A stretch of DNA of 20,372 bases from a virus. Both the position numbers and the translations under genes were made by a program. Location: positions 1 to 20,372 of IMG/VR virus record IMGVR_UViG_3300031787_001039, one strand, 5' to 3'. The notes under the pieces were generated by a model. That model saw only the letters and a program-made list of their open reading frames with translations, had not been told where the DNA came from and did not search any database. Below, piece by piece: positions 4,143 through 20,372 of the stretch (positions are counted from its first letter, which is position 1; the number at the start of each line of letters is the position of its first letter).

Positions 4143-4439
4143 ATGTTCAAATTTAAAGACGTAGAAATTACATTTAATTTCAGAGAATTGCCGCATTATG
4201 ATCAAGAGTATTTGCGTACTATGGCATATGAGACAGCTATGAATAAATCTGTTAAGCATACCGGTTGGGGCTTTGACAAGATGTATTCAGACGCTGATAA
4301 CTTTACGATGTTTGATAATATAAACGCACTCGATGAATATATGAGTGAGTTTGTACACGAGTATGATTATGTAGCTTCACATTTGCTACATGGCAAGAAG
4401 TATTATTTTGCTTGGACTTATTCACAAAGGAACAGATAA
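4143..4439 (+). CDS. Hypothetical protein upstream of queD (98 aa)
   Basis: Not recognised. The ATG at 4143 is preferred to a TTG at 4098 because a promoter-like element (TTGAGC-N17-TATATT) lies between them, and because AGTT-ATG is shared with other starts here (3472, 10611, 14438). The product is acidic and rich in Tyr, Phe, Asp and Met, with VHEYDYVASHLLHGKKYYFAW at the C-terminus given only as its character: aromatic and His-containing. There are no cysteines, membrane segments or known motif. Its stop overlaps the queD ATG (taATG), so it is first in the queD-queE operon. A link to base modification is guilt by association only. Confidence 0.68.
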   Translation: MFKFKDVEITFNFRELPHYDQEYLRTMAYETAMNKSVKHTGWGFDKMYSDADNFTMFDNINALDEYMSEFVHEYDYVASHLLHGKKYYFAWTYSQRNR

Positions 4440-4915
4440 TGGCTAGATACATTTCGACAAAATTATTTGAAAACTATTCTGTAGCAATTAGACAATGGAA
4501 AGCACAACATTCACATTGTCAACTGCTTCATGGTTATGCTTTGAAATTCAAAGTATGGTTTGCTTCTAATGACCCAGATATCGACAAACAGCTCGATGAT
4601 ATGAACTGGATTGTTGATTATGGTGGATTTAAGCCTGCACCGCAAGGTAATGGTTTAAAAGCTTGGATGGATCACATGTGGGATCATACAACATTGATTC
4701 AGAAGGATGATCCGTATGCTGACATTTTTGTACAAATGGAGCAAATGGGTTTGTGTAAACTGCATTTACTAGATAAAATGGGAGCCGAAAGTTGTGCTCG
4801 TCTAGTATATGAACACTTTAACGAGGTATTGTCTAAGACAGATGCCGGCCGTTGCAAGTGTATTAAAGTAGAGTGTTTTGAAAATGATAATAACAGTTCA
4901 ATTTACGAGGAATAA
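4439..4915 (+). CDS. queD: QueD-like 6-carboxy-5,6,7,8-tetrahydropterin synthase
   Basis: Second step of 7-deazaguanine synthesis: converts dihydroneopterin triphosphate to 6-carboxytetrahydropterin. The ATG at 4439 (AAAGG at 4426-4430 upstream, taATG overlap with the previous gene) is preferred over a TTG at 4412; the product is 158 aa. Visible motifs: H24-S-H-C27-Q-L-L-H31-G-Y33 (catalytic Cys and zinc region), MNWIVDYGGFKP (family: MVxDFxxLK), WDHTTLI (family: LDHxxLN) and a C-terminal VECFEN. The usual C-x3-H-G-H zinc motif is H-G-Y here, and the loop between H24 and C27 is short. The substitution could reflect a phage or proteobacterial subgroup, so activity is likely but not certain. 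It is directly followed by queE with a one-base overlap. Confidence 0.9.
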   Translation: MARYISTKLFENYSVAIRQWKAQHSHCQLLHGYALKFKVWFASNDPDIDKQLDDMNWIVDYGGFKPAPQGNGLKAWMDHMWDHTTLIQKDDPYADIFVQMEQMGLCKLHLLDKMGAESCARLVYEHFNEVLSKTDAGRCKCIKVECFENDNNSSIYEE

Positions 4916-5688
4916 TGAACAGTCCAAGAATTACAGACTATGACAAAGTTTTACCAATTAATGAATTATACCGCTGTGTACAATCAGAAGGTTCTCGTTT
5001 TGGTAGACCTACTATTGCTATTCGTGTAACTGGTTGTACTCACCGCTGTTGGTTTGGTGAAGGTGGGTGGTGCGACAGTTGGTATAGTTCAATACATCCA
5101 GAGAAAGGTAAGTTTACTTTTAACGATATCATAAAAATCTATGATGAGAATCCACATATTAAAGAAATGATGTTAACGGGCGGTTCGCCGACTATGCAAC
5201 CTGCGTTAGTTAATGAATTAACGCATTTCTGTGCAAAACGTGGTATTATTATGACTATCGAAACTGAAGGTAGTCACTTTGTAGAAACAGATTTTCCAAT
5301 TGATCTTGTTTCTTTATCTCCTAAATTTAGTAACAGTGTTCCAAAACTAGGTGTTAAGACTCCTAAAGGTAATGTAGTAGATCAGAAGTTTATTGATCAG
5401 CACAATAAGTTTCGTCTTAATGAAGAAGCTATTCGTAAAATGATTACGACTTATGATTATCACTACAAGCCAGTTTGGGATGGTACTGAAGAAAATCTAA
5501 AAGAGATTGAAGAATTTCGAGTTAAATTTGGAATTCCGAAAAATAAAACTTATATAATGCCTGCAGGCGATACTAGAGAACAACTCATAAAGATGTATCC
5601 ATTAGTATTTGATCTGTGTGCTCGTGTAGGTTATAATATGACAGGTCGTGACCATATTATAGCATTCGATGACGCGCGCCAGGTGTAG
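4915..5688 (+). CDS. queE: QueE-like radical SAM 7-carboxy-7-deazaguanine synthase
   Basis: Radical SAM enzyme that rearranges 6-carboxytetrahydropterin to 7-carboxy-7-deazaguanine (CDG). Its 257 residues include QSEGSRFGRPTIAIRVTGC near the N-terminus, which matches the QueE signature before the iron-sulfur site. The cluster cysteines are C41, C45 and C53, i.e. C-x3-C-x7-C rather than the standard C-x3-C-x2-C, with the insert WFGEGGW. TGGSP at 88-92 replaces the usual GGEP SAM-binding motif. The later SLSPKF and the PVWDGTEENLKEIEEF region fit the family. The gene overlaps queD by one base. Variant cluster loops are known in QueE, so this is probably active. No QueC or QueF follows. Confidence 0.92.
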   Translation: MNSPRITDYDKVLPINELYRCVQSEGSRFGRPTIAIRVTGCTHRCWFGEGGWCDSWYSSIHPEKGKFTFNDIIKIYDENPHIKEMMLTGGSPTMQPALVNELTHFCAKRGIIMTIETEGSHFVETDFPIDLVSLSPKFSNSVPKLGVKTPKGNVVDQKFIDQHNKFRLNEEAIRKMITTYDYHYKPVWDGTEENLKEIEEFRVKFGIPKNKTYIMPAGDTREQLIKMYPLVFDLCARVGYNMTGRDHIIAFDDARQV

Positions 5689-5699
5689 CCACATTAGAC

Positions 5700-5718
5700 T
5701 ATAAATAAAGTATATAAT
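5700..5718 (+). promoter_or_regulatory. T4-late-type TATAAATA box and overlapping-region TATAAT box before the homing endonuclease
   Basis: TATAAATA at 5700-5707 is identical to the T4 late promoter consensus and is the only perfect copy I noticed in a gap on this strand. A second element, TATAAT at 5713-5718, has no good -35 box. Starts would fall near 5713 (late type) or 5725 (TATAAT). In T4, free-standing homing endonucleases are often expressed late, which fits. Confidence is limited because AT-rich gaps produce such matches by chance. Confidence 0.4.
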
Positions 5719-5722
5719 GTTA

Positions 5723-5746
5723 ATATTTATTTAAAAGGATAAATAT
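5723..5746 (+). promoter_or_regulatory. Hairpin over the ribosome binding site and start codon of the homing endonuclease
   Basis: ATATTTAT (5723-5730) and ATAAATAT (5739-5746) form a perfect 8-bp stem. The 8-base loop TTAAAAGG carries the Shine-Dalgarno sequence, and the 3' arm covers the first two bases of the ATG at 5745. All pairs are A-U, so the stem is weak. A transcript starting near 5725 would lack part of the 5' arm, while read-through from queE would form the whole hairpin. T4 homing endonuclease genes use comparable hairpins to block early translation. Confidence 0.4.
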
Positions 5747-6443
5747 GACATATATACGAACAGAAAAGATTAATGGTAAGTATAAGTTTATACATGGCAG
5801 AACATGTAATACATGTAATACATACTATGAAACGTTCTCTGGTAATAAAAAAACAATAACACGAAATGGTTGGTGTAGTCATGAATGTAAAAGAAAACAT
5901 TATAATCAACTATATCGTAAAACAGTTAACTGTAAGTATTGCAATACAACACATGATGTACCGACATCTAGTATAAAACAGTTTTGTACACATAAGTGTT
6001 ATACGGAATACGCAAAGTTACACCCCGAAGAATTTAATTTATACACAAAAGCTAAAAATATGCGTAAGTATACTAATACCGAATCGTCTATAGCTAAGGG
6101 TATAGAAACAAAACGAAAAAAAGGTTTGATACGCCAGTGGGTTGATGAACGTAATATAGAATGGACAAAATTTTGGAAAGTATGTAATTATCATACTCGA
6201 AAGATGCGAAAAAAACTTTTTAATACATGGGACGGATATGACTATTATACGGGAGAGTATATTAAGGATAATATTAGTTTACCGTACTACCATAAAGATT
6301 ATCCGACACTCGATCATAGAAAGTCTAGAAGTCAATGTTTTTTAGAAGGGTTAACTGTACGTGAAGCGTGTGATGAAAATAATTTAGTATGGACTACTAG
6401 ATTTAACAATAGTAAAAAGTATAATAAATCTTTGTCAAATTGA
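5745..6443 (+). CDS. Free-standing HNH homing endonuclease with zinc-finger-like CxxC pairs
   Basis: Selfish DNA-cutting protein of phages, 232 aa. The N-terminus has two CxxC...CxxxC modules (C21/C24 with C44/C48; C63/C66 with C81/C85), likely zinc-binding DNA-recognition elements. The middle is basic (KGIETKRKKGLIRQW). The C-terminus carries the HNH-like core YPTLDHRKS (D190-H191), then CDENNLVWTTRFNNSKK with N213 and N222, closely resembling phage HNH endonucleases. It lies alone between queE and groES with its own RBS (AAAAGG) and promoter-like signals. It uses many ATA, AGA and AAA codons and looks more AT-rich than its neighbours, as expected for an invading gene. Assignment to HNH is good; the target site is unknown. 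Confidence 0.87.
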   Translation: MTYIRTEKINGKYKFIHGRTCNTCNTYYETFSGNKKTITRNGWCSHECKRKHYNQLYRKTVNCKYCNTTHDVPTSSIKQFCTHKCYTEYAKLHPEEFNLYTKAKNMRKYTNTESSIAKGIETKRKKGLIRQWVDERNIEWTKFWKVCNYHTRKMRKKLFNTWDGYDYYTGEYIKDNISLPYYHKDYPTLDHRKSRSQCFLEGLTVREACDENNLVWTTRFNNSKKYNKSLSN

Positions 6444-6460
6444 TATGATGTTATTATATT
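6432..6460 (+). promoter_or_regulatory. Strong sigma70-like promoter for the groES-folE-PRT unit
   Basis: TTGTCA (6432-6437), 17-base spacer, TATATT (6455-6460): five of six matches in each box and ideal spacing. The start would be near 6467, 21 bases before the groES ATG. The -35 box lies within the last codons of the HNH gene, whose stop is at 6441-6443. This suggests host RNA polymerase transcribes the following genes from here. Confidence 0.6.
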
Positions 6461-6487
6461 ACAAATCAATAAAAACTAATAAAGAAT

Positions 6488-6781
6488 ATGAATATGAAAC
6501 CAATGGGCGACTTAGTTCTTGCAAAAGAAGTAAAACAAGAAAAAACTAAGTCAGGAATTATTTTGATGGAAAGTGCAGATAACTATGTATATGCTGATGT
6601 AGTAGCTATAGGAGATGGTTTGTTTACACAGACCGGAGATCGTATTCCTGTAACAGTTAAGGTAGGCGATCGTATTGTTATTCATAAGAATGAAGTCGGT
6701 AAGCATAAGAAAATTACAATTAATGACGAAGAATTTGTATTGGTTCGTGAATCTGAAATTGCACTAATCGAAGTAAAGTAA
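6488..6781 (+). CDS. groES: GroES co-chaperonin (Cpn10)
   Basis: Heptameric lid of the GroEL folding chamber, here phage-encoded. At 97 aa it equals the normal bacterial length. The start region LVLAKEVKQEKTKSGIILM corresponds to the GroES N-terminal strand plus mobile loop (family: EKTKSGIVLP) that docks onto GroEL. It is followed by ADVVAIGDG and VKVGDRIVIHKNEVGKHKKI (family: VKVGDxVxxxxYxG) and VLVRESEIALIEV at the end. An in-frame ATG at 6494 is an alternative start. Its stop overlaps the folE ATG by one base. The partner GroEL is encoded at 15378-16997, not adjacent as in bacteria. Identity is firm. Confidence 0.95.
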   Translation: MNMKPMGDLVLAKEVKQEKTKSGIILMESADNYVYADVVAIGDGLFTQTGDRIPVTVKVGDRIVIHKNEVGKHKKITINDEEFVLVRESEIALIEVK

Positions 6782-7485
6782 TGAATAAAGAAGTTGAAAA
6801 TACAATTGAGTTAGTATTAGGTGGTTATGCTAATGGTATTTCATTACAATTAGCAGAAAAGCAAAAACTGCAAGGACCCGATGCTAAACTAACAAAAGAA
6901 GAAAAAGAAGCTATTATCAGTGAAGCTGCAGAAGCCTTTGGTAACTTCTTAACAGCACTTGGTGTTGATTGGCAGAATGATCCGAATTCATCTGATACGC
7001 CGCGCCGTGTAGCAAAAGCATATGTAAATGATCTTTGGGCAGGGCGATTTAATCCAGCTCCGAGTATTACAGCATTTCCAAGCGATGGATATGACGGTAT
7101 GGTATTTGAAGGTGGTATTCCATTAACAAGTATGTGTAGTCATCATCACCAGACAATCATGGGTTCAGTACATGTAGCTTATATTCCAGGTAACGAAAGT
7201 AAAGTTATTGGATTGAGTAAATTGAATCGTGTTGTAGAACATTTTGGAAGACGTGGCGCTATTCAAGAACAGTTAACTGTAGCTATTCATAATGCTGTAG
7301 ATACGATGATTGAAAACAATCAAGGTGTAGCAGTAATGATTGAAGCAACCCATAACTGTGTACAATGTCGTGGTGTTAAGCATGGTGGTGCTAGTATGAA
7401 AACTAGTAAATTAACTGGCGCATTTAAAGATGACCCGGCTACAAGAAATGAGTTTTACGAATTTGTAAGAGGCTATAAATCATAA
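6781..7485 (+). CDS. folE: GTP cyclohydrolase I (FolE)
   Basis: First step of 7-deazaguanine synthesis: opens GTP to dihydroneopterin triphosphate, the substrate of QueD. The product is 234 aa. The zinc ligands are visible as C119 and H122 in SMCSHHH and C193 in HNCVQCRGV. The core also has GSVHVAYIPG, KVIGLSKLNRVVEHFGRR, IQEQLT and KLTGAF, all family signatures. The roughly 50-residue N-terminal extension is helical and charged, as in other bacterial forms. The gene overlaps both groES and the phosphoribosyltransferase by one base, forming a translationally coupled set. In a phage with QueD, QueE and a DpdA-like protein, deazapurine supply is a more likely role than folate (inference). Confidence 0.95.
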   Translation: MNKEVENTIELVLGGYANGISLQLAEKQKLQGPDAKLTKEEKEAIISEAAEAFGNFLTALGVDWQNDPNSSDTPRRVAKAYVNDLWAGRFNPAPSITAFPSDGYDGMVFEGGIPLTSMCSHHHQTIMGSVHVAYIPGNESKVIGLSKLNRVVEHFGRRGAIQEQLTVAIHNAVDTMIENNQGVAVMIEATHNCVQCRGVKHGGASMKTSKLTGAFKDDPATRNEFYEFVRGYKS

Positions 7486-7991
7486 TGGAAATAGTTATTC
7501 CTGAGTATAAAATCGAACGACGAGTTCGTGCGATGGCTCATAAAATATCAGAAGAACATACTGCTAGTGGCAATTCGTTACCGCCCGTAATGATTTGTGT
7601 ATTGAACGGAGCATTTATGTTCTTTTCTGATTTAGTTAAGGATATGGGTATAGACGTTGAAATAGATTTTATACGACCTAAATCATATCATGGCCGAGAT
7701 AATAGTGCCGGCGTAACATTTACAAAAGATATTGAACTAGACCTAAAAGGTAAACGTGTTTATATCGTTGAAGACATTGTAGATACTGGACAGACAATGA
7801 TAGAAATACTACAACGTATTTCAGATAAAATGCCGGATGAAGTAAAAGTAATAACACTAGTACATCGCAAAGGTAATGAGTTTCCAGTAGACCACTTTTG
7901 TTTTGAGATTGGCGACGAATGGGTAATCGGCTACGGTTTTGATGACAATGGTCTACGTAGAAACTACAGAAATATCTATGATGTACGATAA
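7485..7991 (+). CDS. Hypoxanthine/guanine-type phosphoribosyltransferase
   Basis: Type I PRTase joining a purine base to PRPP to give a nucleotide. The product is 168 aa, close to bacterial Hpt. Key parts: the pyrophosphate loop VLNGAFMF (residues 39-46), the PRPP motif VEDIVDTGQT (95-104, D100 as the catalytic acid position) and C-terminal FEIGDEWVIGYGFDDN, where the residue that stacks on the purine is Trp instead of the more common Phe. The lysine that contacts the base O6 is expected around LVHRK, but its position is shifted, so specificity is uncertain. It sits between folE and polB. It may salvage guanine or hypoxanthine, or handle a 7-deazapurine base (speculative). Confidence 0.88.
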   Translation: MEIVIPEYKIERRVRAMAHKISEEHTASGNSLPPVMICVLNGAFMFFSDLVKDMGIDVEIDFIRPKSYHGRDNSAGVTFTKDIELDLKGKRVYIVEDIVDTGQTMIEILQRISDKMPDEVKVITLVHRKGNEFPVDHFCFEIGDEWVIGYGFDDNGLRRNYRNIYDVR

Positions 7992-7996
7992 AAAGG

Positions 7997-8005
7997 ACTT
8001 ATATT
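7997..8005 (+). promoter_or_regulatory. ACTTATATT -10-like element, predicted leaderless start of polB
   Basis: ACTTATATT lies exactly six bases before the polB ATG, so the expected transcription start is the A of the ATG. The identical nine bases sit at the same distance before the nuclease ATG (17955-17963). No good -35 box is seen here (TATGAT at 17-base spacing). The AAAAGGA sequence at 7991-7997 is too far from the ATG for an ordinary RBS. Confidence 0.35.
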
Positions 8006-8011
8006 TAACTT

Positions 8012-10567
8012 ATGTATCAAGCAGTATATTTTCATAGACATACTAATGTAGTACACCTATGGGATGATGAAAAAGGATATATGCGTATACCGTATAAACG
8101 CTACGCTTATGTTAAATCTCCTAATGGTAATCTAACTGCATTAGATGGTACCTTAGTTAAGAAGGTATCAAAATTCGCGGGAGAAGATCCCAAAGACGTA
8201 TATGAATCGGATGTTCGACCGGATGTTCGTACACTGATTGATATGTACTATCAAACAGATGATGTATCAAAAGATCATCGTATTTTATTCTTCGATATCG
8301 AGGTTCAACGAGATGAAGAACGTCGACATAGTACGGTTGAAGATGCTACTAACGTAATCAACTCAGTAGCATATTATGATAACGTAAATCGACAGTATAA
8401 CATATTTGTAATCGATCCTAATGTAGAAAAGATTACTAAAGAACAAACTGAATCAGGTAACATCTTTAAATGTTCTAACGAAGCTGATTTGTTAATGTTA
8501 TTCCTTAAGGCTTGGAATAAGTTTAAGCCTACAATTGCTGTTGGTTGGAACTGTGATAAGTTCGATATTCCATACCTAGTAAATCGTATGAAGCGTGTAC
8601 TAGGTGAAGAATATGTTACTAAACTAAGTCCGATTGGTATCATCGATAAAGATCGTAAATACGAACAATACCAGATTGCTGGTGTTACGGTATTCGACTT
8701 AATGCGTTTATATCGTCAGTATACATATAACGAAGAACCGTCATATTCATTGGATTACATATCTAGAAAAGAATTGGGTAAAGGTAAGGTTGAATATGAA
8801 GGAAGCTTAGATACGTTATATGAAACGGATGTTAACAAGTTTATTGAATACAACCGTGTCGACGTTGAACTTATGGTTGAACTAGATGAAAAGCTTAAGT
8901 TCATTGATCTGGCTCGAAGCATATGTCATAAAGGTCACGTACCGTATAGTGATGTATACGCAGCGACCCGTACTTTGGATGGCGCATGCTTGACATTCTT
9001 AAAACGTGCTGGTATTGTAGCTCCCAATCGACAAGTATCTGATGATACCGAAGATGTAGCTGTCGATGAAGAGGATGATGATAGCTTTACTGGTGCATTT
9101 GTTAAAGATCCAGTACCTGGCAGGTATGAATGGGTATTTGACGAAGATGCCTCGGGTCTATATCCTAATACACAACGATCTCTAAATATGTCTCCAGAGA
9201 CTAAAGTGTTTAGAATCGACAATTGGGATCTAAATGCTTTTATCAATAATACTCCTATAGTATTTAAAGTATCATCTAAACGGCTGTCTTGGACACCTAA
9301 CGAATTGCGTGCTTATTTAGTTACTAATAACTATTCAATAGCTGCTAACGGCGTTGTATATGACTTGTCACGTAAGGGTCTTATTCCTAGTATTCTTGAG
9401 TTATGGAGCCAAGAACGTGATGAGTTTAGAGCTTTAGCTAAACAATATAAACAAGAAGGTAACAAATTGTTATACGAATACTATGAGTCCAGACAGCTAA
9501 CTCAAAAGATTATATCGAACTCTTTGTATGGTGTATTAGGTAATAGAGGCTTCAGATTCTATGACTTGGATAATGCAGAAGCAACTACCATTACCGGTCA
9601 GGCCGTAGTTAAACATGCGATGCAAAAAGGCAATGAGTGGTTTACTAAAGCAACTGGTATTGACCGAGACTATGTAATTTATGTAGATACGGATAGTAAC
9701 TTTTTCTCAGCAGTACCGATAATCGAAATGCTAGAAAAGAAGCAAGGTAAAAAACTTAGCTATGATGAAAAGGCTACGATAACATTTAAAACGTCTCAAC
9801 AGGTAGAAAAGTTTATTAACGGTTCGTTTGATGACTTTGCTAAGTTGTACTGTAATATTGATAAACACTTCTGGACCTTTAAACAAGAATATGTAGCTGA
9901 AGCAGCTATTTGGATTGCGAAGAAGCGTTATGCTCAAAAGATTATATCTGAAAAAGGCGTTTCTATTTCTGATATGACGAAAGGCGAAAAGCAGTTTAAA
10001 CTCGATGTGAAAGGCCTTGACGTTGTTAGATCTAACTTCCCTAAGAAGTTCCGTGAGTATATGTCAGATCTGTTAATACGCTTGTTAGACAATCAATCTA
10101 AGACTCAGGTCGATGAAGTTGTATTGGATTTTAAAGAGTATCTGCTTACTGTAGAAAACGTAACAGAGATTATGCCAGCCAGTTCAATTAAAAAGTTTGG
10201 CGAATATGCTACGGAGAGAAGTGATGGGTTTTTGATAACAGCTAAAGGTACACCGATACATATTAAGTCAGCAATTAACTATAACAACTTATTGCATATC
10301 TTAAACATCCCATCAGCACCTAGAATTGATATAGGACAGAAAGTTAAATGGGCATATATTAAGCCTAATGCATATACGTTTGAAACTATTGCAATTCCAG
10401 ATGAAGGTGTTCCGGCAGAGGTTATGGAATTCTTAAAACAGCATTTGAATAACAATCTAATCTATGAAAAGATTATGACAAAGAAACTGCAATCATATTA
10501 TGATGCTATGGGTTGGGGTGATATTCCTAACAACAGAAATGTTGGTAAATTCTTTTCATTTGCTTAG
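8012..10567 (+). CDS. Family B DNA polymerase (T4 gp43-like)
   Basis: Replicative DNA polymerase with 3'-5' proofreading, 851 aa. Exonuclease motifs: Exo I FFDIEV (D95, E97), Exo II NCDKFD (180-185) and Exo III YNRVD (280-284). Polymerase motifs: A as DEDASGLYP (377-385), B as K499-IIS-N503-SLYG and C as YVDTDS (557-562) with two catalytic Asp. A KKRYAQK segment follows. All catalytic residues are intact and no intein or split is present. An acidic stretch (DEEDDD, near residue 353) separates the exonuclease and palm regions. The gene probably works with the sliding clamp and loader encoded at 13.3-17.7 kb. If the DNA carries deazaguanine, this enzyme must copy it (inference). Confidence 0.96.
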   Translation: MYQAVYFHRHTNVVHLWDDEKGYMRIPYKRYAYVKSPNGNLTALDGTLVKKVSKFAGEDPKDVYESDVRPDVRTLIDMYYQTDDVSKDHRILFFDIEVQRDEERRHSTVEDATNVINSVAYYDNVNRQYNIFVIDPNVEKITKEQTESGNIFKCSNEADLLMLFLKAWNKFKPTIAVGWNCDKFDIPYLVNRMKRVLGEEYVTKLSPIGIIDKDRKYEQYQIAGVTVFDLMRLYRQYTYNEEPSYSLDYISRKELGKGKVEYEGSLDTLYETDVNKFIEYNRVDVELMVELDEKLKFIDLARSICHKGHVPYSDVYAATRTLDGACLTFLKRAGIVAPNRQVSDDTEDVAVDEEDDDSFTGAFVKDPVPGRYEWVFDEDASGLYPNTQRSLNMSPETKVFRIDNWDLNAFINNTPIVFKVSSKRLSWTPNELRAYLVTNNYSIAANGVVYDLSRKGLIPSILELWSQERDEFRALAKQYKQEGNKLLYEYYESRQLTQKIISNSLYGVLGNRGFRFYDLDNAEATTITGQAVVKHAMQKGNEWFTKATGIDRDYVIYVDTDSNFFSAVPIIEMLEKKQGKKLSYDEKATITFKTSQQVEKFINGSFDDFAKLYCNIDKHFWTFKQEYVAEAAIWIAKKRYAQKIISEKGVSISDMTKGEKQFKLDVKGLDVVRSNFPKKFREYMSDLLIRLLDNQSKTQVDEVVLDFKEYLLTVENVTEIMPASSIKKFGEYATERSDGFLITAKGTPIHIKSAINYNNLLHILNIPSAPRIDIGQKVKWAYIKPNAYTFETIAIPDEGVPAEVMEFLKQHLNNNLIYEKIMTKKLQSYYDAMGWGDIPNNRNVGKFFSFA

Positions 10568-10586
10568 GTTCGTATTGATTTTTTCA

Positions 10587-10595
10587 TTATAATAA
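10587..10595 (+). promoter_or_regulatory. TTATAATAA -10-like element
   Basis: TTATAATAA in the 43-base gap after polB, the same nine bases found at 3345-3353 and 19312-19320 before other genes. The perfect TATAAT is at 10588-10593, and only a poor TTAGGT is seen at 18-base spacing. The start would be near 10600, 11 bases before the ATG at 10611. It would drive the unknown-glycosyltransferase-dpdA string. Confidence 0.4.
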
Positions 10596-10610
10596 AAGAA
10601 ATAATTAGTT

Positions 10611-11036
10611 ATGATTGGATTTAAAGGTTATTGGTATGGCAAAGAAGTAGAAGGTCGGTATACGGATATCGATACTCTATTTATCTCAGATTTTAAAGCG
10701 TTGCCAGTAAATTTTACGATTGAACAGCCTCATGTATATTTTTGTTCAGGCGCTGTACAGCAACTAATAGATGAAAATAAGTTTGATACTATTTTCGATA
10801 TGTTAACGTCACGTATAATTTCATTAGAAGTTACGCCAGGTATGTTAGAAAAGATTCCGGCAATGTTACGTATACATTGTCATATACTTCTAATGATATC
10901 TGCAACAGATGCTGGGTTGTTAAAGAAAACAGATAGTATTAAAGTAGTGTATGATGACTATTCATTATATTGTACTACAGTGCATAATATGCAACAAGTA
11001 ACTCCTAACGATTATAAATTCGATACATATGAATAA
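10611..11036 (+). CDS. Hypothetical protein (141 aa)
   Basis: Not recognised. It is first gene of a string with the glycosyltransferase (8-base overlap) and the DpdA-like gene, and is preceded by a TATAAT box and AGTT before its ATG. The protein starts with aromatic-rich MIGFKGYWYG and has a middle region with ISLEVTPGMLEKIPAMLRIH and DAGLLKKTDSIKVVYDD. There is no membrane segment or known motif. The tight overlap suggests its product is needed together with the next two proteins, perhaps in DNA modification, but no function can be read from the sequence. Confidence 0.72.
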   Translation: MIGFKGYWYGKEVEGRYTDIDTLFISDFKALPVNFTIEQPHVYFCSGAVQQLIDENKFDTIFDMLTSRIISLEVTPGMLEKIPAMLRIHCHILLMISATDAGLLKKTDSIKVVYDDYSLYCTTVHNMQQVTPNDYKFDTYE

Positions 11037-12081
11037 AGTTTGGATTGTAGATTTAGAAGCTGTTGATACTCGATATACGGGCGAATGGAAGCATTGGGTA
11101 CCATCAGTAATTAGAGCTTATATCGATGATAAAGCTTTAGATTTCGATGTTGAGGTTGTTGAAGGCGATTCTGATATTCCAGAAGCTACTACACCCGGAG
11201 CATTTTTAAACTTTGGCGGTACGAATATATATAAGAGTTCACAGATGAGTAAAATTGCTCGAGCATTTACAGAAGGTAATGTTAAGGCAGGTGACATCTT
11301 TTTATATACAGATGCATGGAATCCAACAATAATTCAACTCAAGTATATGAGTCAGTTGTTAGGCATTCCTGTTAAGATACATGCTCTTTGGCATGCTGGT
11401 AACTATGATAAGAATGACTTTTTAGGTCGTCTTATTAAAGATGAGTGGGTTAAGTCATTTGAGTTATCATTAGCTCAAGCAATTGACTATAACTGGTTTG
11501 CATCAGAATATCATATTGAATTGTTTAAACAAACATATGGCAATGATATTAAATGTTACCATACGGGTTGGCCGATGGAGTATTTACACGCTATTGTAAA
11601 GCCAACTGAGAAAGAAGATATAATTTTGTTTCCGCACCGTATAGCGCCTGAGAAGCAAGTTGAGATATTTAGAGACTTAGCTAAACAATTACCTCAGTAT
11701 AAGTTTATTGTTTGTCAAGATCGAAAACTAACAAAAGCTGAATATCATGAGTTGTTAGGTAAGTCTAAGATAGTGTTTTCTGCAAATCTGCAAGAGACAT
11801 TAGGAATTTCATGCTACGAAGGTTTATTAGCAGAGGCAGTTTCATTGGTACCGAATCGTTTGAGTTATACAGAAATGTATGATACGATATTTAAGTATCC
11901 TAGTGAATGGACAGAATCGTTTGAGGCATATGAACGTAATAAAGAACAATTGGTTAAACTAATTGATTTTCATATGAGTTCATATCCAAACTATATGAAT
12001 GTTATACAACGTGATGCAAAACGTTTAACGAAAGAATATTTTAGTTGCGACAATTTATTAAAGGCAATGTTTAATGACTAA
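11029..12081 (+). CDS. GT-B fold glycosyltransferase
   Basis: Transfers a sugar from a nucleotide-sugar donor. The product is 350 aa. The N-terminal Rossmann half is divergent, with IFLYTDAWNPTIIQLKYMSQLLG and a KIHALWHAGNYD segment. The C-terminal half holds FPHRIAPEKQVEIF (donor-side entry), FSANLQETLGISCYEGLLAEAV and VPNRLSYTEMY, the family 4-type E-x7-E region; the stretch after it contains the sugar-donor glutamate. Acceptor unknown. The gene overlaps the preceding gene by 8 bases and the following DpdA-like gene by 8 bases. That tight coupling makes base or DNA glycosylation a candidate role, but capsid or host-surface modification is possible too. Confidence 0.8.
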   Translation: MNKVWIVDLEAVDTRYTGEWKHWVPSVIRAYIDDKALDFDVEVVEGDSDIPEATTPGAFLNFGGTNIYKSSQMSKIARAFTEGNVKAGDIFLYTDAWNPTIIQLKYMSQLLGIPVKIHALWHAGNYDKNDFLGRLIKDEWVKSFELSLAQAIDYNWFASEYHIELFKQTYGNDIKCYHTGWPMEYLHAIVKPTEKEDIILFPHRIAPEKQVEIFRDLAKQLPQYKFIVCQDRKLTKAEYHELLGKSKIVFSANLQETLGISCYEGLLAEAVSLVPNRLSYTEMYDTIFKYPSEWTESFEAYERNKEQLVKLIDFHMSSYPNYMNVIQRDAKRLTKEYFSCDNLLKAMFND

Positions 12082-13261
12082 TCCTAAGAAGTTTATTTAT
12101 TTTCCTTCCTTATCTGCCGGTGGTAGTGCCGATGCATTTAAGAAGAACAAAGAAGTTATGCCAGGCTTAACTTCTAGATTTTATTCAGAGGAGTTTCCAG
12201 AAGAATGGAGACATCCATATTTCCTAGTAACTGCAGGACACTATTACAAAAAGCCTGAGACCAGAAAAGACTTTGGTCTAGAGAAAGCATTTGTATTTGG
12301 TGACTCTGGCGGTTACCAGTTAGCTCGAGGAGCCCTAAAGTGGACTCCAGAGATTCGTGAGACTATTTTCCATTGGTTAGAAAATAATGCTGATATCGCA
12401 GCTAACCTAGATATCCCACCACGTACTATGTACGCGAACCGATTTGAAGATTCATTGTCTATTAGTTTAGATAACTTTAAATGGTTTGAACAGCATCAGT
12501 CCGGTAAATGTACATTCCTTAATGTACTTCAAGGTTCTAATACTCATCAGTATGCATACTGGTACGATCAGGTTAAGGATTTTGAATTTGGTGGTTGGTG
12601 TGTAGGCGGTCCACAAAAGCTTGTTGATTTCTTTTATGCTTTAGCAGTAATGTTACAGAATCGTGAGTTTGAAAAAGAGCGTAACGGTTATATTCACTTG
12701 CTAGGTATTTCTAAGATTAGTGACTTCTTCTTATTGAGTTTGCTACAAAAGAACTTTAATAAGCATTTCGATAACAGAATTCAAGTATCGACAGATAGTT
12801 CATCGCCAGGTCAATATCCAGTGTATGGTACGTATTTGCATTCACCTCAGTTAAGCAAAATGACATTTAGTCATTTATACTTCCCTAAAGGCGACAATCT
12901 ACCGTATAATGCTACAGATATTGTTCCTAATCCATTTGGTCATCCAATAAATATGACGTTTGGCGAAGTAGCTAAATATGACGCTGATTGCAATATGAAA
13001 ATGGTTCTTAACAATGTATTTGTATTTAACAAAGCAATTGACATGGTTAATGAACTAGTAGATGCTCATATTGAATTGTTAGAAACAATTGTTCCGGCAG
13101 ACTTTTATCAGATTCTTAAGAGTATGAATGAAATGTTTGAGAATCCAGACGCAGCACTTCATATCTATGAAAAGTATCGTCATTACTATATGAACTATGG
13201 CGGAACGCATATTTCATCGACAAACGAAAATACATTTAATAATTTCTTCGAAACAGTATAA
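12074..13261 (+). CDS. dpdA: DpdA-like DNA-guanine transglycosylase (Tgt superfamily)
   Basis: Predicted to swap guanine in DNA for a 7-deazaguanine base by base exchange. The product is 395 aa. Visible Tgt-type motifs: FGDSGGYQ with D77 (general acid/base equivalent of tRNA-guanine transglycosylase), LNVLQGSN (149-156), GGWCVGG (173-179), HLLGISKISD (near 210-220) and STDSSSPG with D241 in the nucleophile position. The C-x-C-x2-C zinc site of canonical tRNA Tgt is not seen, as in the divergent DNA-acting group. With folE, queD and queE in the same window, a DNA rather than tRNA role is the best reading. The gene overlaps the glycosyltransferase by 8 bases. DpdA identity is from motifs; the exact subgroup is uncertain. 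Confidence 0.85.
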   Translation: MTNPKKFIYFPSLSAGGSADAFKKNKEVMPGLTSRFYSEEFPEEWRHPYFLVTAGHYYKKPETRKDFGLEKAFVFGDSGGYQLARGALKWTPEIRETIFHWLENNADIAANLDIPPRTMYANRFEDSLSISLDNFKWFEQHQSGKCTFLNVLQGSNTHQYAYWYDQVKDFEFGGWCVGGPQKLVDFFYALAVMLQNREFEKERNGYIHLLGISKISDFFLLSLLQKNFNKHFDNRIQVSTDSSSPGQYPVYGTYLHSPQLSKMTFSHLYFPKGDNLPYNATDIVPNPFGHPINMTFGEVAKYDADCNMKMVLNNVFVFNKAIDMVNELVDAHIELLETIVPADFYQILKSMNEMFENPDAALHIYEKYRHYYMNYGGTHISSTNENTFNNFFETV

Positions 13262-14437: not shown

Positions 14438-16997
<2,560 letters not shown>

Positions 16998-19347: not shown

Positions 19348-20372
19348 ATGCAACAGTTACAACTTCCAAAGTTAAGAAAAATCGATCCTAACAAGCCTAA
19401 GAAAAAGAAAATCCTTTTGTTGTCAGATGACTTAAGGATGCATTCTGGTATTGCTACAATGTCAAGAGAGATTGTAATTAATACATGTAAAGAATATGAT
19501 TGGGTACAGTTAGGTGCAGCAATTCAACATCCGGATCATGGCAAGATTATTGACATGAGTGCTGAAATTGCTAAAATTACTGGCGTCGCTGACGCGTCGG
19601 TAAAACTTTACGCACATGATGGTTACGGCAATCCGCAAGTCTTAAATGAACTAATGCGTATTGAAAAGCCAGATGCTATTCTTCATTTTACAGATCCTAG
19701 ATTCTGGATATGGCTTTATCAGATCGAACATGAGATACGCCAACAGGTTCCACTAATGTATTATAACATTTGGGATGATTTACCGTATCCACATTGGAAC
19801 GAACCTTATTATGAATCATGTGATTTGTTAATGAACATTTCACGTCAAACACAAAACATTGTTAAGAACGTGTTACGCCGCAATCCAAAAGAAGATTGGG
19901 CAGTACAATGGGTACCACATGGTATTAACGAAAATGTTTACTTTCCTATATCATCAGACGACACTGCAATCGGAGAAGAGTTTACAGCTTTTGAAAAACA
20001 GTTCAAAGGGCAGAACGGCGTTGATTTTATCATATTCTGGAACAACAGAAATATACGTCGTAAACAACCAGGCGATGTAATGTTAGCGTATGCTAGGTTC
20101 TGTGACAGTTTACCTAAGGAAGAAGCAATGCGTTGTGCATTATTAATGCATACGGCTATCATAGATGAGAATGGTACGGACCTAATGGCAGTTAAAAATG
20201 CTGTTTGTCCAGATTATAAAGTAATCTTTAGCAATCAACCGATTGATGGTAAGACAATGAACTTCTTTTACAATATGGCCGATGTTACAATTAACATTGC
20301 TAGTAACGAAGGATTTGGTTTGTCTGGCGCTGAAGCAATAATGGCAGGTTGTGTTGTCATTAATAATGTAAC
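19348..20372 (+). CDS. GT-B fold glycosyltransferase, 3'-truncated by window end
   Basis: The open frame runs off the window after 341 codons. It starts at ATG with AAGGAG (19338-19343) four bases upstream, the best Shine-Dalgarno in the window. The N-terminus is basic (PNKPKKKKILLLSDDLRMHSG), leading into the first Rossmann strand. MYYNIWDDLPYPHWNEPYY and the WVPHGINENVYFP segment, which joins the two lobes, follow. IASNEGFGLSGAEAIMAGC at the end is the family 4-type E-x7-E donor-binding motif. Similar glycosyltransferases occur in T4-like marine phages. The acceptor is unknown (DNA base, capsid or host glycan). Confidence 0.87.
   Translation, partial: MQQLQLPKLRKIDPNKPKKKKILLLSDDLRMHSGIATMSREIVINTCKEYDWVQLGAAIQHPDHGKIIDMSAEIAKITGVADASVKLYAHDGYGNPQVLNELMRIEKPDAILHFTDPRFWIWLYQIEHEIRQQVPLMYYNIWDDLPYPHWNEPYYESCDLLMNISRQTQNIVKNVLRRNPKEDWAVQWVPHGINENVYFPISSDDTAIGEEFTAFEKQFKGQNGVDFIIFWNNRNIRRKQPGDVMLAYARFCDSLPKEEAMRCALLMHTAIIDENGTDLMAVKNAVCPDYKVIFSNQPIDGKTMNFFYNMADVTINIASNEGFGLSGAEAIMAGCVVINNV

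Follow-up and report, generated by a model that had tools for sequence, protein, structure and literature searches.

Evidence is presented here that a virus record of 20,372 nt (IMGVR_UViG_3300031787_001039; hereafter the window, with all genes of interest on the + strand) encodes 7-deazaguanine synthesis together with a predicted DpdA-type DNA guanine transglycosylase and a glycosyltransferase (GT) of the GT4 fold. It is fairly probable that these genes serve a hypermodification pathway of phage DNA which dispenses with QueC and in which the GT, DpdA and A2, a small protein of the unannotated family phrog_17812 encoded by relatives of the window, act as proposed below. A sugar-bearing deazaguanine is likewise considered likely in the phage DNA. 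That glycosylated 7-deazaguanine, made via FolE-QueD-QueE, A2 and GT4 and inserted by a long-form DpdA, forms a widespread class of DNA base in hundreds of phage contigs as well as in cultured phages, PA5oct and Paride among them, is held with somewhat better than even confidence. Genes were assigned chiefly by hidden Markov model (HMM) searches against Pfam, PHROG and NCBIfam (equivalog cut-offs), and those of main concern are the following:

4439..4915, + strand: divergent QueD-like 6-carboxytetrahydropterin synthase (PF01242, 1.5e-11; phrog_2389 QueD, 4.5e-31)
4915..5688, + strand: QueE, 7-carboxy-7-deazaguanine (CDG) synthase of the radical S-adenosylmethionine (SAM) type (phrog_2076, 8.7e-46)
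6781..7485, + strand: FolE, GTP cyclohydrolase I (PF01227, 8.6e-48; phrog_2197, 7.4e-63)
7485..7991, + strand: probable hypoxanthine-guanine phosphoribosyltransferase, HGPRT (PF00156, 1.6e-24; TIGR01203, 5.9e-42)
10611..11036, + strand: small conserved protein 'X', directly upstream of the GT gene (syntenic within the lineage)
11029..12081, + strand: GT, GT4-fold, probably retaining (structure model, conserved residues, linkage to deazaguanine genes)
12074..13261, + strand: predicted DpdA-type DNA guanine transglycosylase, long form (Foldseek, fold alignment, invariant motifs)

Linkage of the glycosyltransferase, A2 and DpdA

The GT, A2 and DpdA genes occur together in distantly related phages, and from the sequences compared a link between the GT and the 7-deazaguanine pathway is regarded as near certain. 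Two samples of viral loci were assembled. The first comprised 79 loci fetched by GT similarity alone, without selection for DpdA and with many loci cut by contig ends; A2 was present in 78, DpdA in 74, FolE in 60, QueE in 45 and QueC in none. The second comprised 80 loci fetched by A2 alone, with the A2 of a phage lacking the GT as query, and contained DpdA in 78, GT in 71 and again no QueC. Among the 24 nearly full-length loci of this second sample, FolE and DpdA were encoded in all, QueE and GT in 22 each, QueD in 20 and QueC in none. Since QueE is rare (177 of 50,697 phage records), this linkage is not attributable to chance. Furthermore, the GT accompanied the long form of DpdA in 69 of 73 cases and the short form in none of five (Fisher p 6e-6; loci within a lineage are not independent). 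Clustered at 50% identity, the GTs formed six groups, each linked to deazaguanine genes, of which the one holding the relatives of the window was fetched through DpdA and is biased by that choice.

Cultured phages display the same association. The window GT is 46.6% identical to gp167 of PA5oct, encoded directly downstream of the DpdA gp168, which in turn is 28.6% identical to the window DpdA; the order of the two genes is reversed compared with the window. All isolate lineages in which the GT found a match (PA5oct, ACP17, X1, Phosso, PhiXhv-12) encode deazaguanine genes in its vicinity. Gene orders were QueD-x-FolE-x-DpdA-GT-A2-QueE in Acidovorax phage ACP17, FolE...GT-TGT-A2-QueE in Xanthomonas phage X1 (TGT, tRNA-guanine transglycosylase), A2-GT-x-FolE...QueE in Sinorhizobium phage Phosso and QueE-XGPRT-x-QueD-FolE-x-DpdA-A2-GT in Synechococcus phage BUCT-ZZ01 (XGPRT, xanthine-guanine phosphoribosyltransferase). 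Altogether, the association extends to isolates infecting Pseudomonas (PA5oct, Paride), Acidovorax, Xanthomonas, Sinorhizobium and Synechococcus. For PA5oct, a review of jumbo phages already records a system that makes and incorporates deazaguanine, without mention of the GT in the passages concerned (PMC7824862). In Xanthomonas phage PhiXhv-12 (L101:7816-11050), where the GT match is weaker, a Gat-QueC fusion, an LmbE-type deacetylase and a divergent member of the GT family are adjacent, and a glycosylated, deacetylated archaeosine-type base is a possible product of this trio.

As a control, the other GT gene of the window (19348-20370) was followed to its relative in Microcystis phage Mel-JY01, in which QueD and QueC were not found and the linked type of GT gave only a marginal match. 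A scan of bacterial genomes with the linked GT yielded two contigs only, probably viral. L198 and L199, contigs from bins assigned to Neomarinimicrobiota and Euryarchaeota, carry GT and A2 and are probably phage sequence.

Precursor synthesis and the absence of QueC

The conversion of GTP to CDG by FolE, QueD and QueE is an established pathway (PMC13329287), and the window encodes all three together with DpdA, which is the gene set of a phage 7-deazaguanine DNA modification system. An earlier sequence-only reading had placed queD (4439), queE (4915), folE (6781) and a DpdA/Tgt-like gene (12074) in this stretch and had proposed that synthesis ends at CDG without QueC; the positions were confirmed by HMM matches and a model of the TGT fold, and the end point of synthesis was supported. 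The QueD is divergent: PF01242 was matched, the NCBIfam QueD model TIGR03367 gave 21.9 bits, far under its cut-off of 89.25, and HGY stands where the zinc motif HGH is usual. QueE shares 63.5% identity with its counterpart in Cellulophaga phage phiST and 65.5% with that in Flavobacterium phage immuto, keeps the three cysteines of the radical SAM cluster as CX3CX7CDS, and is matched by the NCBIfam QueE models at 2e-13, under their cut-offs. Its cluster loop is five residues longer than usual (CX3CX7CDS vs CX3CX2CDS), as is also the case in phiST.

QueC was not detected in the window. Seven related contigs (up to 95 kb), searched with E values allowed up to 10, and ten further ones (up to 127 kb), searched with a limit of 1, contained none either, while the same search detected it in at least 12 of 14 control genomes. 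The result supports the absence of QueC as a trait of the lineage and not an artefact of a short window, although the related contigs are fragments and absence is proved for no single genome. QueC is needed for preQ0, 7-amido-7-deazaguanine (ADG) or archaeosine (G+), and not for the CDG type, and hence, short of a host contribution at this step, the window is not of the preQ0 or G+ type.

Such supply by the host, in which host QueC would convert CDG to preQ0 for insertion by DpdA and the phage genes would just raise the flux, would be compatible with the lack of QueC in the window and the related contigs, and participation of the host has been discussed (Hutinet et al., 2019; PMC6884629). However, A2 appears in the place of QueC, which none of the 80 A2-seeded and 79 GT-seeded loci contained, and among isolates QueC was absent in 10 of 12 lineages with A2 and present in all four compared lineages without it (Fisher p 0.008). 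Dependence on host QueC is therefore judged improbable.

A divergent QueC-like protein occurs in a few GT phages. PP-loop proteins with SGGxDS and a C-terminal C..CWWC.ER motif resembling QueC were seen in GT-bearing contigs (L200:474-1217, L201:670-1332, L202:421-1164, L203:343-1044, L204:476-1288) and are possibly repurposed QueC. As a hidden QueC of the present lineage they were rejected: of the 30 records searched with them, three gave a clear match, but neither the window and its relatives nor PA5oct, Phosso, ACP17 and BUCT-ZZ01 contain one.

The phosphoribosyltransferase encoded after folE reached 143.3 bits against TIGR01203 (cut-off 150; 5.9e-42), matches solved HGPRT structures down to 5.2e-30 and adjoins folE in most relatives; phosphoribosyltransferases are also found close to the pathway in BUCT-ZZ01, PA5oct and immuto. 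Its position between folE and polB, together with a ribonucleotide reductase gene at the start of the window, could suggest a pre-replicative route, in which the phosphoribosyltransferase makes a deazaguanine nucleotide, ribonucleotide reductase its deoxy form, and PolB incorporates it. Only a slim chance is given to this route, as DpdA is the most constant partner (24 of 24 nearly full-length loci) and the enzyme resembles ordinary HGPRT.

A predicted DNA guanine transglycosylase

No Pfam family, that of TGTs included, matches the product of the gene at 12074-13261, which resembles phrog_10773 only weakly; strong members of phrog_10773 are ACP17 gp123, the TGT of X1 and a protein of BUCT-ZZ01. 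With 13 relatives as input, AlphaFold gave a model of modest confidence (predicted local distance difference test, pLDDT, 62.7; predicted template modelling score, pTM, 0.70). In a Foldseek search of the PDB, the DNA preQ0 insertase DpdA (7ui4) was the best match (E 6.1e-5), followed by TGTs, and VIA-align scored the model at Z 16.5 against QTRT1 and at more than 14 against each of the 50 TGTs among the matches listed. The motifs GDSGG, LDIPP, NVLQG, GWCxGG, LLGIS and STDSSSP are mostly invariant among relatives; D77 (GDSGG), D113 (LDIPP), Q153 (NVLQG) and D241 (STDSSSP) are invariant, so that the TGT fold is accompanied by its catalytic aspartates. The succession of motifs from GDSGG to STDSSSP agrees with that known from TGTs. 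The C-terminal zinc site of tRNA-type TGTs (CxCxxC, then His) was not found in the protein, which has three cysteines in all. Long and short forms of DpdA were not joined by profile comparison.

A Tgt-like protein acting on tRNA, with the cluster boosting queuosine precursors for host translation, would agree with the TGT fold and with the tRNA enzymes that hold the top Z-scores. The best Foldseek match, however, is an enzyme of DNA, the zinc motif and a Pfam TGT match are absent, no tRNA gene was found in the window and the GT has no obvious place in a QueC-less tRNA pathway. Identity with a tRNA-type TGT was consequently rejected on the zinc motif and the best structural match, and action on tRNA is regarded as the least probable of the alternatives considered. 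The product is instead predicted to be a DpdA-type DNA guanine transglycosylase, its action on DNA being suggested by gene context. In other phages, exchange of guanine in DNA for a modified base by DpdA has been shown (Hutinet et al., 2019; PMC6884629).

The glycosyltransferase

The model of the GT is confident (pLDDT 92.7, pTM 0.89) and displays a GT-B fold of the GT4 type, with Z 25.7 to sucrose-phosphate synthase, 24.4 to BshA and about 21 to BGluT, a pterin glucosyltransferase. Across 42 sequences, R204, K209 and E264 do not vary, and position 256 is occupied by E in 37 and by D in five. The EX7E motif of GT4 enzymes is thus present, as are the R and K that contact the sugar nucleotide. 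Because these residues are conserved, the GT is probably an active retaining enzyme.

The sequence-only reading had left the product as CDG or a preQ0-type base derived from the host, and had counted the genes between those of the pathway as spacers. Neither view was supported, since the GT (11029-12081) and A2 recur with the pathway in distant phages, and a further modified, probably sugar-bearing end product is for this reason more likely. A plain pathway, in which DpdA inserts CDG or a form decarboxylated by A2 and the GT merely travels along, acting on a pterin, a protein or the cell surface, is nevertheless conceivable. The deoxynucleosides dCDG and dDG are reportedly known from phages; phiST and MA9V-3 possess FolE, QueE, a short DpdA and A2 but no GT; and the structural neighbours of the GT include a glucosyltransferase of tetrahydrobiopterin, BGluT (Z ~21), while FolE and QueD make pterins. 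On the other hand, the GT tracks the long form of DpdA (69/73 vs 0/5) and A2 (78/79) over distant lineages in which gene order is rearranged, and BshA, MshA and sucrose-phosphate synthase are nearer to it than BGluT. The plain pathway is thus considered unlikely, if still the alternative to be taken most seriously.

Within 10 kb of the GT, parts of the GT-bearing lineages encode an NAD-dependent epimerase (46 of 80-odd loci), a nucleotidyltransferase (37) or a phosphomannomutase (22), none of them universal, and these enzymes could supply the sugar nucleotide. As a constant sugar-supply gene, phosphomannomutase was rejected, being present in only part of the GT lineage. In one GT-bearing lineage, genes for a nucleotidyltransferase, a phosphomannomutase and a GDP-mannose dehydratase-like epimerase lie upstream of dpdA (L136:3742-5925).

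Small proteins are encoded upstream of GT, A2 or DpdA in the window (10611-11036) and elsewhere (L136:8735-9307, L099:8335-8733, L100:9513-9944), and may constitute one family X, with strong similarity only between L136 and ACP17 (E 2.5e-26) and weak similarity for the window. Protein X of the window has two weak resemblances, one to the open reading frame that precedes the GT gene of phage X1 (E 8.8e-4) and one to a family of 174 aa encoded ahead of A2 in further GT phages (hhalign E 4e-5, probability 43%).

The small protein A2

A2 comprises about 115-180 residues with three invariant histidines and a conserved SCE motif, and its members include PA5oct gp166, ACP17 gp125, Phosso 223 and phiST gp040, among others. 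In the lineage of the window it was found in five relatives with long contigs, outside the stretch covered by the window and, in those measured, ~30-45 kb from GT-DpdA, while in the L016 branch it lies immediately upstream of GT-DpdA. A scan seeded with the A2 of phiST found nothing, and the alignment of the family is too variable to serve as a search query. The histidines and the SCE motif prompted a profile comparison with QueD, which gave no significant similarity (hhalign E 0.006, probability 2.6%), and descent of A2 from a QueD paralogue is not claimed. In Vibrio phage Bakedbeans, A2 forms the C-terminal part of a 383-residue protein (gp176; L113:8212-9363).

Proposed pathway and known systems

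In the proposed pathway, FolE, QueD and QueE would convert GTP to CDG, and in the absence of QueC the candidate base would be CDG or its A2 product. A2 and the GT would act on CDG, or on the base after its entry into DNA, to give a 7-deazaguanine with a sugar, this putative sugar being attached before or after insertion. DpdA would exchange guanine in the phage DNA for the modified base after replication, so that virion DNA would carry it, and the guanine freed by each exchange may be returned to GMP by the HGPRT encoded next to folE.

Several points weigh against this pathway. Its chemistry is a prediction from genes, and neither donor nor acceptor of the GT can be read from its fold, one structural neighbour of which, BGluT, glycosylates a pterin. 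Loci of one lineage share ancestry, so that the linkage counts are not independent. A2 has no significant match to a known fold or family by sequence, the PDB profile search giving chance matches and Pfam nothing credible. DpdL has reportedly been proposed as a CDG decarboxylase, a role that A2 might have; the sole handle of CDG is its carboxylate, and if A2 were DpdL, the product would be left without an evident sugar acceptor.

The combination of FolE, QueD and QueE with a DpdA of the TGT fold and post-replicative base exchange is shared with phages 9g, CAjan and nt-1 (Hutinet et al., 2019; PMC6884629), whereas the window lacks QueC and an amidotransferase, its lineage adds the GT4 enzyme and A2, and its DpdA is a distant long form without Pfam match. 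The same authors noted the QueC-less phage Bipper, which might carry CDG. Cellulophaga phage phiST and Chryseobacterium phage MA9V-3 likewise have FolE and QueE without QueC, and A2, but differ in their short-form DpdA and the lack of the GT. The parallel with the glucosylation of 5-hydroxymethylcytosine in T-even phages is that a sugar added to a modified base by a phage enzyme would shield the DNA from restriction. The differences lie in the base, which here would be a 7-deazaguanine introduced by transglycosylation, and in the GT, which belongs to the GT4 type with a fold related to BshA and MshA. A sugar on a 7-deazaguanine nucleoside is found in mannosyl- and galactosyl-queuosine of tRNA, which depend on eukaryotic enzymes and on a cyclopentenediol acceptor that is absent here.

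Glycosylated 7-deazaguanine in DNA was not described in the literature searched, which did not extend to Cui et al. (2023) and a 2024 review. If the prediction is true, such a base would be the deazaguanine counterpart of glucosylated hydroxymethylcytosine, with bearing on restriction, CRISPR evasion and modification-dependent nucleases, and would extend the 7-deazaguanine chemistry of DNA from small substituents to a probable sugar. Functions are thereby proposed for unannotated families (phrog_10773 as DpdA, phrog_17812 and the linked GT), and the prediction concerns phages already in culture.

Gene order and further genes of the window

Relatives, fetched by DpdA similarity, share with small variations the order queD-queE-groES-folE-HGPRT-polB-orf-GT-dpdA-clamp-dUTPase-RFC (RFC, replication factor C). 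The description of the pathway as split did not stand up to this conserved order, the HNH gene being the sole member of the window's gene run missing from the relatives. Further genes of the window are:

5745..6443, + strand: HNH gene (PHROG HNH, 4.9e-5)
6488..6781, + strand: GroES
8012..10567, + strand: PolB (HMM search)
15378..16997: GroEL, separate from the GroES gene
19348..20370: second GT4-like gene (relatives in other phages)

The phage encodes both GroES and GroEL, at separated places. The second GT (19348-20370) is common to Flavobacterium phage immuto, Microcystis phage Mel-JY01 and Rhodothermus phage RM378.

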